Source of the DNA: an uncultured Mucilaginibacter sp.
Lineage (GTDB): Bacteria > Bacteroidota > Bacteroidia > Sphingobacteriales > Sphingobacteriaceae
NCBI RefSeq assembly: GCF_913773635.1
Contig: NZ_CAJYGQ010000003.1
Coordinates: 186,001-250,000 of the forward strand
Direction of reading: 5' to 3'
DNA length: 64,000 nucleotides
Part shown: positions 20,971 to 23,887 of the stretch, piece after piece
How positions within the stretch are numbered: the stretch's first letter is position 1
Layout: the number at the start of each line of letters is the position of its first letter
The notes under the pieces: model-generated
What the model saw: only the letters and a program-made list of their open reading frames with translations
Database searches by the model: none
Told to the model about the DNA's origin: nothing
Translations under genes and position numbers: made by a program

Positions 20971-21990
20971 ATGTGCCAGATACTGATCATCTATACCGGT
21001 GGGACAATAGGTATGATGAGCGACCCACGCACTAAAGCCTTAGTGCCCATAAATTTTGAGCAAATTATGGAGAACGTTCCTGAATTGGAGCGTTTAAACT
21101 GCCGTATTAAAGTACACTCGTTTGAGGATATTATCGATTCATCAAACATGAGTCCGGCTATTTGGAGCCGCCTGGCCGGTTTAATTCAAAAGCATTACGA
21201 CGAGGTTGATGGCTTTGTGATTTTACACGGCTCAGATACGATGGCCTATTCGGCATCTGCATTAAGTTTCATGCTTGAAAACCTGGCCAAGCCTGTAATT
21301 TTTACTGGTTCGCAATTGCCTATCAGTGCTATACGTACTGACGCTAAAGAGAATTTAATGACGGCCATAGAGCTGGCCAAGGCTAAAAAGAACGATAGAG
21401 TACGCGTACCTGAGGTTTGTATATATTTCGATTACAAATTATTTAGAGGTAACCGCGCGTTTAAATATAATTCATCAAAATTTGAGGCTTTCCGCTCACC
21501 AAACTATCCGGTACTAGCCGAGTCGGGTGTACACCTGCGCTTCAGTATAAATGATATACGCAAACCAGGCGAAGGTGAATTGATTGTGCATAAAGAGTTT
21601 ACAAGTGATGTTGCCGTTTTAAAGCTGTATCCGGGTATTAGCCCTAAAGTTGTTGAAAACATTGTAAATTCTGATGTGCGTGGTATTGTAATGGAAACCT
21701 TCGGAGCAGGTAATACAACAACCGACCAATGGTTTACCGATTTACTGAAAGGTGCAATTGACAGCGGAAAGGTTATTGTTGATATATCTCAATGTAAGGT
21801 GGGTACTGTTGAGTTAGGCCGTTACGAAACCAGCAAGCAACTTAAGGATATTGGCGTTGCCAATGGTTACGATATGACGTTTGAAGCCGCTATCACTAAA
21901 ACAATGTTTTTATTAAGCCAGTTTGAAGATCCTAAGGAAGTGAACTACTGGCTTGAGCAGGATATTCGCGGCGAATTGACAGTTTCGTAA
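20971..21990 (+). CDS. ansA: Type I asparaginase
   Basis: ILIIYTGGTIGMM, GFVILHGSDTMAYSASALSFML, PVIFTGSQLPI. Confidence 0.95.
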   Translation: MCQILIIYTGGTIGMMSDPRTKALVPINFEQIMENVPELERLNCRIKVHSFEDIIDSSNMSPAIWSRLAGLIQKHYDEVDGFVILHGSDTMAYSASALSFMLENLAKPVIFTGSQLPISAIRTDAKENLMTAIELAKAKKNDRVRVPEVCIYFDYKLFRGNRAFKYNSSKFEAFRSPNYPVLAESGVHLRFSINDIRKPGEGELIVHKEFTSDVAVLKLYPGISPKVVENIVNSDVRGIVMETFGAGNTTTDQWFTDLLKGAIDSGKVIVDISQCKVGTVELGRYETSKQLKDIGVANGYDMTFEAAITKTMFLLSQFEDPKEVNYWLEQDIRGELTVS

Positions 21991-22015
21991 GAAGAAGGGC
22001 TTTATATCCCGCGCG

Positions 22016-22097
22016 TCATGCTGAATTTATTTCAGCATCCCTTATGCTAAGCCGATTGTTTGCTTGCCTAATGAGGTGCTGAAATAAATTTATTATA
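22016..22097. repeat. REP-like palindromic pair, left of the GIY-YIG gene
   Basis: gtcatgctgaatttatttcagcatcc (inner stem atgctgaa/ttcagcat) and a decayed inverse copy aggtgctgaaataaatttattataac at 22074-22097. Confidence 0.7.
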
Positions 22098-22125
22098 ACA
22101 AACAATGGCATTCAACCATGCTAAT

Positions 22126-22428
22126 CTAATCCAGCTCCAACTCAAGTTTTAAATCCTTCATAGTAGGATTAACTGAAGTAATGAGATTGATTTTCCAGTC
22201 TTTGTGCCAATTTTTTAATTGCTTCTCTCTATCAATAGCATCACTAATGCGTTCATAGTATTCGTAATAAATCAAATCATAAAGGCGATATTTCTTTACA
22301 AATTTTGAGCCTTCACTGCTGTTTAAATGCTGCCAAACTCTTGCGCTTAAGTTACTGGTAACACCAATATAGAAAGTTGTTCTGTACTGGTTCGACATAA
22401 TGTACACATGGCCTTGTTTGAATAGCAT
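22126..22428 (-). CDS. Small GIY-YIG nuclease family protein (YhbQ/UPF0213-like)
   Basis: GHVYIMSNQYRTTFYIGVTSNLSARVWQHLNSSEGSKFVKKYRLYDLIYYEYYERISDAIDREKQLKNWHKDWKINLI; complete GIY-YIG core. Confidence 0.93.
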   Translation of the reverse strand: MLFKQGHVYIMSNQYRTTFYIGVTSNLSARVWQHLNSSEGSKFVKKYRLYDLIYYEYYERISDAIDREKQLKNWHKDWKINLITSVNPTMKDLKLELELD

Positions 22429-22459
22429 ATTACTATAATCCCTTCATAACCTGTCCTGT

Positions 22460-22595
22460 GAGATGCCGAAATAAATTCGGCATGACTGTATTTCGTTAAC
22501 TAATCCTTTTAAGGTCATGTTCAACCTGTTTAGCACCCCAGATGCTTAGTTGGAAATCTGTTTTCTTGTTGTATGTGAAATGAGTTCAACGTGAT
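22460..22595. repeat. REP-like palindromic copies, right of the GIY-YIG gene
   Basis: gagatgccgaaataaattcggcatgactg (22460-22488); decayed forward copy gtcatgttcaacctgtttagcacccc (22514-22539); decayed inverse copy gtatgtgaaatgagttcaacgtgat (22571-22595). Confidence 0.6.
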
Positions 22596-22597
22596 AG

Positions 22598-23800
22598 TTA
22601 TTTGTTCACTATTTCATAGCACTGCTGCGCAATCTCCAGTTCTTCGTTAGTTGGCACAATTAAAATTTTAACCTTTGAGTTTGCCGTACTAATTTCACGA
22701 ATGCCTTTAGCGCGGGTGCTATTTACTGGAGTGTCAAGTTCAATACCTAAATACTCCAAATCGGTACAAATCAGCTCGCGTATCAGGGCGTCGTTTTCTC
22801 CAACGCCGGCAGTGAAAATGATGGCGTCAAGTCCGTTTAAAACAGCAGTATATGAGCCAATGTACTTTTTAATGCGGTAGGCATACAGGTCGTAAGCTAG
22901 TTTTGCCTGCTCATCGCCTTGTTCAATGGCTGCGGTAATATCGCGCATATCGCTGTGGCCGGTAAGGCCCAGCATACCGCTGCGCTTATTAAGCAGGTTG
23001 CTCACTTGTTCAATGTCATAGCCTAATTGGTTAACCAGGTAAAATACCACCGTAGCATCAATATCGCCCGAACGTGTGCCCATGATTAGCCCGCTCAACG
23101 GACCAAATCCCATACTGGTATCAACCGACTGCCCATCGTTAACCGCAGCCATACTGCAGCCGTTGCCCAGGTGTATGCTAATGAGTTTGCTATCAGCCTT
23201 ACCCAAGTAGTCGGCAGCTTGTTCAGTCACATACTTATGGCTGGTGCCATGAAAGCCGTAGGTGCGTATATTAAAATCTGTATAATATGAATTTGGTATA
23301 GCGAAACGAAACGCCTCAGGAGGTAAAGTTTGATGAAATGCGGTATCAAAAACACCTATTTGGGTAGCATTAACAAATATCTTTTCAGCTACCTCAATAC
23401 CTAAATAACTGGCCGGATTATGTAAGGGGGCTAATTGAAAAGTGCCTTTCAGCTCCTCTTTTACCTTGGCATCAATAATGGTAGTGGTGGTAAAACGCTC
23501 GCCGCCATGCACAATGCGATGTCCAACTACCTTAATGTCGGCAGGGTCTTGTATAACGGCAAGTTCGCCTTCTGTAAGCAAAGTGTTTACTTCTTTAAGT
23601 CCGGCTTCATGATCGGGCAGTTCTTCAGGCGTAAGTTTAATCACTTTCTCCTCGCCATCAACAAAAACCTTGTGGGTTATGGTTGGATTGCTCAAGCCAA
23701 TGCGCTCCACCAATCCGCTGCAAACAGGCGTGTTGGTTGGCATTTTAAATAACTGATATTTAATAGAGCTGCTGCCGGAATTAACTACAAAGATGTTCAT
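22598..23800 (-). CDS. ackA: Acetate kinase (ORF listed to 23839; internal start at 23800 preferred)
   Basis: MNIFVVNSGSSSIKYQLF, HRIVHGGERF, GVFDTAFHQTLP, FHGTSHKYV, MGFGPLSGLIMGTRSGDID. Confidence 0.97.
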   Translation of the reverse strand: MNIFVVNSGSSSIKYQLFKMPTNTPVCSGLVERIGLSNPTITHKVFVDGEEKVIKLTPEELPDHEAGLKEVNTLLTEGELAVIQDPADIKVVGHRIVHGGERFTTTTIIDAKVKEELKGTFQLAPLHNPASYLGIEVAEKIFVNATQIGVFDTAFHQTLPPEAFRFAIPNSYYTDFNIRTYGFHGTSHKYVTEQAADYLGKADSKLISIHLGNGCSMAAVNDGQSVDTSMGFGPLSGLIMGTRSGDIDATVVFYLVNQLGYDIEQVSNLLNKRSGMLGLTGHSDMRDITAAIEQGDEQAKLAYDLYAYRIKKYIGSYTAVLNGLDAIIFTAGVGENDALIRELICTDLEYLGIELDTPVNSTRAKGIREISTANSKVKILIVPTNEELEIAQQCYEIVNK

Positions 23801-23887
23801 GTGATTTTGTTTATGGTCAATAGACCATATATATAGCATAGTTTATCAAATTATCATAGTTAATGAACCATCAACTATGAACTAAAA

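Follow-up and report, generated by a model that had tools for sequence, protein, structure and literature searches.

A GIY-YIG nuclease gene between inverted CGTC-type REP palindromes in Mucilaginibacter: a probable nuclease-repeat cassette

The 64-kb stretch of DNA analysed here (the window) contains a small GIY-YIG nuclease gene that is bracketed by two perfect palindromes, the REPs at 22015-22039 (+) and 22462-22486 (-) (Table 1). We consider it likely that this locus is a nuclease-repeat cassette, in which the enzyme would recognise its cognate REP and cutting would enable the spread of REP-bounded units. The first-pass annotation had described a 100-aa GIY-YIG gene flanked by inverse palindromes, and our analysis confirmed this: the window nuclease matches Pfam GIY-YIG PF01541 with E=1.6e-14, and no match like the two strong REPs appeared in 100 shuffles of the window (chance expectation 0.00). 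The forward palindrome had been placed at 22016-22040; it is a genuine palindrome, and its start had been set one base late. The host genome (G000) belongs to the genus Mucilaginibacter, and its assembly comprises 4.05 Mb in 13 contigs.

Both intact REPs have an 8-bp stem (ATGCTGAA in the 22015 copy and ATGCCGAA in the 22462 copy) and a 5-nt loop, and in both the GTC end points outward. The z-scores of their ssDNA folds are -4.2 and -5.9, respectively. Three additional decayed copies had been proposed, at 22074-22097, 22514-22539 and 22571-22595. The second of these is clearly related, with a local score of 47 versus 30 for the top site in the shuffled window, and the CCCAGATGCTTAG that follows it resembles the inner sequence beside intact class A REPs of relatives (e.g. 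at locus L009). The other two are at chance level when taken alone: the copy at about 22074-22099 scores 30, equal to the best of shuffled or unrelated window positions, and the copy at 22571-22595 scores 27. We accept these two weak copies solely because an outward-facing pair would be expected to have a partner there. Copies 22015 and 22075 form such a pair, a 38-nt inverted repeat that is 71% complementary, and the 22571 copy is credible because its spacing and orientation suit a partner of 22514-22539. The order along the window is a REP pair (22015/22075), the nuclease gene, a REP (22462) and a degenerate REP pair (22514/22571). The genes ansA (+) and ackA (-) end convergently on either side of this interval, which, as had been stated before, consists essentially of the nuclease gene and palindromes; we found little else in it, and an Rfam search of the interval gave no match. 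The ansA gene was found in 34 of the 37 genus genomes, and ackA was not beside ansA in any relative examined.

Table 1. Features of the nuclease locus and its flanks, with positions in the 64-kb window
Feature	Position	Strand	Basis
ansA, asparaginase, host flank outside the cassette	20971-21990	+	ORF list
REP class A, CGTC tag, sequence GTCATGCTGAATTTATTTCAGCATC	22015-22039	+	motif match, fold
Decayed class A REP, partner of 22015-22039	about 22074-22099	-	inverted repeat, 5 mismatches
GIY-YIG nuclease gene, single-domain, 100 aa, frame intact	22126-22428	-	ORF list, Pfam
REP class A, sequence GTCATGCCGAATTTATTTCGGCATC	22462-22486	-	inverted repeat, motif match, fold
Decayed class A REP, then CCCAGATGCTTAG	22514-22539	+	local score 47
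Possible decayed partner of 22514-22539	22571-22595	-	spacing and orientation alone
ackA, acetate kinase, host flank outside the cassette	22598-23839	-	ORF list

The window protein is small and consists of one GIY-YIG domain with the full catalytic motif. Catalytic-type residues are invariant in alignments of 12 and 47 rows, and the AlphaFold model of the protein has a pLDDT of 91. A PDB profile search returned 1zg2 and 1ywl, which are UPF0213/YhbQ-type small GIY-YIG proteins, as the nearest structures, with weak sequence matches only; proteins of this type are not known to be associated with repeats. A fold search pointed to UPF0213 (1zg2), Slx1 and UvrC GIY-YIG domains, none of them at E<=0.001. 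The PADLOC defence models gave one marginal match (E=0.014), and phage records contained no homologue at E<=1e-5.

A homologue search of the host genome and its relatives yielded about 90 genes in 44 genomes. Association with REPs was analysed in a sample of 80 loci, each with up to 10 kb per side, using a hairpin detector that requires GTC, a 5-bp stem beginning AT, a loop, the matching stem and C, and no further motif. The enrichment of palindromes near GIY-YIG genes that the first-pass annotation implied was borne out: REP density in the 80 loci was 3.7/kb at <=250 bp from the nuclease gene, 0.79/kb at 250-500 bp and 0.066/kb at 4-10 kb, and scrambled-tag controls gave no hairpins within 250 bp of the nuclease genes of these loci. 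Exact-stem REPs were present on both sides within 250 bp for 35 of 71 family genes, but for none of 721 other ORFs of the same loci (Fisher p about 2e-41). A strict first detector overlooked REPs with mismatched stems (e.g. GGCACC), and its counts are lower bounds. Three GIY-YIG genes without REPs lie together in a separate clade of the tree, and REPs were absent from all four UvrC-type loci. Such REPs were also lacking within 450 bp at all 30 Y1-transposase loci of the relatives, and a Y1 transposase search of the host genome found no match. The latter two results speak against mobilisation of the REPs in trans by a Y1 transposase (RAYT), with the GIY-YIG gene as a passenger. Although several relatives have Y1 genes and mobilisation by RAYTs has been proposed elsewhere (PMC2817692), we find this explanation scarcely credible for the present repeats, and the survey of Di Nocera 2013 (PMC3733652) likewise saw no CGTC REPs around any Y1 gene.

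The REPs fall into several classes. Class A reads GTCATGCYGAA-loop-TTCRGCAYC, class B GTCATTGCGAG...GCAATC, class C GTCATTTCGA...GAAATC, class D GTCATNCTGA...GAAGNATC and class E GTCATTCCGAG...GGAATC, and further classes exist; in relatives, the centres of classes B and C are longer or imperfect. When the flanking REP class was mapped onto a tree of 80 proteins, 8 changes sufficed for 6 states, compared with 30-42 in 500 label shuffles. The window nuclease belongs to the class A clade, and its 14 close members as well as L051 all have class A REPs. Nuclease and REP have thus diversified together, and since each nuclease branch lies between its own version of the REP, the enzyme very probably recognises it. 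The stem positions of class A co-vary (GC with CG, TA with CG) and are 96% Watson-Crick, versus 70% when shuffled, and this points to conservation of the hairpin itself.

The correspondence between nuclease clade and REP class bears on two alternatives raised in the first-pass annotation. It refutes the possibility that the gene simply came to lie in a spot rich in repeats. The same match disfavours the view that the repeats act as terminators only. In its fuller form, that view would make the palindromes ordinary bidirectional terminators or mRNA-stabilising hairpins, with the GIY-YIG gene there by chance. A site between convergent stops would suit such a role, and the palindrome at 22463-22483 fits a loose terminator pattern; this is, however, a single terminator-like site in the region, near the shuffled expectation of 0.5. 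The flanking REP class follows the nuclease clade, none of the 721 other ORFs has REPs on both sides, and we regard this explanation as highly improbable.

REP abundance follows the cognate nuclease for three of four classes. Among 37 congeneric genomes, compared by one-sided p values that are not corrected for phylogeny, REP density in genomes with the cognate nuclease versus those without it was 8.3/Mb versus 2.2/Mb for class A, 12.3/Mb versus 4.7/Mb for class B and 9.0/Mb versus 1.2/Mb for class D (p 0.003-0.005 for these three classes). The difference for class C (4.7/Mb versus 1.5/Mb) was not significant (p 0.09). No family nuclease was detected at E<=1e-8 in genomes G003 and G007, and REPs of classes A-D are absent from both. 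In genome G017, 460 class B REPs were counted and an intact nuclease of the family was not detected; its gene has either been lost or falls into a gap of the assembly. The host genome has 20 REPs of class C and no nuclease of that class was found; these REPs are possibly the relic of a lost one. The persistence of REPs in these two genomes, which counts against the cassette reading, indicates that the enzyme is not needed for it, or that the genes are absent from the assemblies. The assembly of the host genome contains only 5 good copies of the window palindrome, and because class A REPs are so few the window cassette may be inactive or have arrived recently.

REPs usually occur in pairs. Of 131 neighbouring REP pairs, 78 were outward-facing, 27 inward and 26 tandem, and the outward-facing pair, mostly 75-95 bp in length, is the usual unit. 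REPs without a nuclease gene reach tens to hundreds of copies. Orthologous sites differ in their occupancy by these units. The nuclease gene of L106 (genome G013) has class B REPs on its two sides and lies in an intergenic region between convergent genes; the counterpart of this region lacks the nuclease in both G031, where it contains remnants of class B together with pairs of class C, and G017, where it contains a class B-like pair. Similarly, the site of L083 in the relative G029 is occupied by a single class B pair, with the nuclease absent. In G013, the GCATGCTATACAG inside the cassette ends is the sequence found inside gene-less pairs. Over 110 collinear kb, G013 and G031 are about 93% identical, and many sites differ in whether they carry a REP pair or in which pair they carry. 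Many class B pairs in these two genomes are bordered by AT...AT; their boundaries are too diverged for a clean target-site duplication or a precise empty site to be resolved. Judged from these comparisons, the occupancy data are consistent with REP-bounded units having been gained and lost, at a resolution short of the precise junctions and of proof of transposition.

GIY-YIG enzymes include homing endonucleases, and the window nuclease might accordingly be a free-standing homing endonuclease with an intergenic target, the REPs being remnants of repair. Its similarity to a group I intron endonuclease model, which is weak and under the model cut-off, and the variation in occupancy between species would agree with this. 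A homing endonuclease would be expected at one shared target, whereas no two of the 14 class A copies have a common flank; the copies of this one clade are at unrelated sites, with the REP as the only common target seen. Gene-less REPs in such high numbers do not suit homing either, and we judge it very unlikely.

Two further observations concern G031. The flanks of the nuclease locus L109 of G013 are about 14 kb apart in G031 and in opposite orientation, which indicates a rearrangement breakpoint near a REP cluster. In addition, class C REPs form a tandem array with a period of 147 bp beside a truncated GIY-YIG gene (G031:C1:970238-970856).

The family extends well beyond the genus. Genome records and plasmids were scanned, and the 91 loci with family homologues that were recovered span Cyanobacteria, Chloroflexota, Armatimonadota, several candidate phyla, Bacteroidota, and Alpha-, Beta-, Gamma- and Deltaproteobacteria. 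Exact REPs were present at 70 of the 91 loci, on both sides at 44 and on one side at 26, and the outermost REP was outward-facing in 89 of 114 cases. In Azospirillum, the family nuclease gene lies between sufB and sufC. On a plasmid of Planktothrix agardhii (L207), a REP-flanked family nuclease gene has an MmeI-type restriction enzyme on one side and the DISARM gene drmA on the other. Two further single-domain GIY-YIG genes, L151 (G017:C5:111344-111556) and L149 (G003:C26:22835-23050), have no GTC REPs and lie beside repeated tRNA or tRNA-like sequence. Upstream of L151, a truncated tRNA-Val-like copy separates two tRNA-Val genes, and downstream there is a tRNA-like gene called as tRNA-Stop; in the truncated and the downstream copies, a palindrome (CCCGATTTTATATCGGG / CCCGATTTTACATCGGG) replaces the anticodon arm. 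L151 and L149 are possibly a second type of GIY-YIG cassette that uses tRNA-derived repeats.

The homologue of N. gonorrhoeae, L211, is 42% identical to the window protein over 90 aa, and we take it to be Ssn. In work by Chenal, Veyrier and colleagues in Nature Communications in 2025, Neisseria Ssn reportedly cuts ssDNA site-specifically at its repeat and affects transformation, and it is said to have thousands of homologues with different specificity. Like Ssn, the window protein has a single GIY-YIG domain, and as in Neisseria the gene lies amid its own repeats, with a repeat class specific to the enzyme clade. Unlike Neisseria Ssn, the window nuclease is from another phylum and is associated with another repeat class; several nuclease/REP classes, moreover, coexist within the one genus studied here. 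If Ssn acts as reported, the window locus would be a member of the Ssn/repeat type.

The likeness to Ssn brings in a further explanation, namely that the nuclease recognises REPs but mainly controls DNA exchange by cutting incoming ssDNA during natural transformation, while the REPs spread passively by recombination. Such control is the role reported for Ssn, and the N. gonorrhoeae homologue was found here together with its REPs. Competence is reported in some Bacteroidota, such as Riemerella columbina (PMC7965970). The outward-facing bracketing by REPs and the narrow size of gene-less pairs, as well as the changing chromosomal positions and the many phyla involved, suit a mobile unit better. 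We therefore hold a main role in DNA exchange to be somewhat unlikely.

The repeats studied here have most of the defining features of CGTC REPs, a group that includes Neisseria dRS3 and Rickettsia RPE-4/RPE-6 (Di Nocera 2013, PMC3733652). CGTC REPs are defined by an unpaired CGTC (or TGTC/CCTC) tag at one end, an 8-9 bp stem beginning AT and a 4-5 nt loop, and they form mostly outward-facing (HH) dimers (PMC3733652). In agreement with this definition, the stems of both intact window copies begin with AT and are of matching length, as are their loops, and pairs are mostly outward (78/131). The tag is CGTC in the 22015 copy and AGTC in the 22462 copy, and most relatives have CGTC or TGTC. L211 lies amid CGTCATTCCCGCGCAGGCGGGAATCTA repeats, which match the Neisseria CGTC-1 repeats, i.e. 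dRS3 (PMC3733652). The survey found no transposase associated with CGTC REPs (PMC3733652), whereas here a GIY-YIG nuclease gene accompanies them.

In other bacteria, RAYTs were proposed to establish and mobilise REPs on the basis of inverted flanking REPs, co-evolution and abundance (Nunvar 2010, PMC2817692). The locus resembles RAYT/REP systems in that the gene lies between two inverted REPs, enzyme and REP have co-diversified and REP abundance follows the cognate enzyme, although not significantly for class C. It differs from them in its enzyme, a GIY-YIG protein without a Y1 (HUH) tyrosine transposase domain, and in its tag, which is GTC instead of GTAG. Of the earlier description as a REP/RAYT-like cassette, the architecture consequently holds, as judged from inverted REPs, co-diversification, abundance, gene-less pairs and shifting positions; the RAYT enzyme has to be replaced by a GIY-YIG enzyme, which is not of Y1/HUH type.

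We propose the following model for the nuclease-repeat cassette. The gene of a small GIY-YIG endonuclease would have, on either side, copies of the CGTC-type REP that is cognate to the enzyme and that the enzyme probably binds and cuts. It would most likely recognise the REP as a hairpin, probably in single-stranded DNA such as the lagging strand or incoming DNA; specificity of the window nuclease for single strands is suggested by homology. The nick would be placed at or next to the GTC tag. Cutting of the REP followed by repair could then copy the REP-bounded unit with its gene, and also gene-less REP pairs, to new sites, and in this way the nuclease may mobilise REPs. Such spread would be RAYT/REPIN-like in manner and different in chemistry. 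As a tentative extension, to which we give somewhat less than an even chance, small GIY-YIG nucleases could be the missing enzymes of the whole CGTC REP superfamily, with the cassette as the autonomous and REP pairs as the non-autonomous element, and would then represent a second origin of REP-type elements, independent of RAYT/REP and driven by GIY-YIG chemistry.

If Ssn acts as reported, the pairing of a nuclease with a repeat is not new in principle; the present analysis contributes an explicit connection to CGTC REPs, the match of clade and class inside a single genus, and data on presence and absence at orthologous sites. Should the enzymes cut single-stranded hairpins specifically, they would offer a ready choice of ssDNA tools that differ in specificity. 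CGTC REPs are short repeats that occur widely in bacteria, and no enzyme was known for them as of the 2013 survey (PMC3733652). The clade-by-clade match between nuclease and REP supplies a candidate enzyme and links the repeats of Bacteroidota to Neisseria dRS3, and with several ready enzyme/repeat pairs in one genus the origin of REPs becomes testable at the bench.
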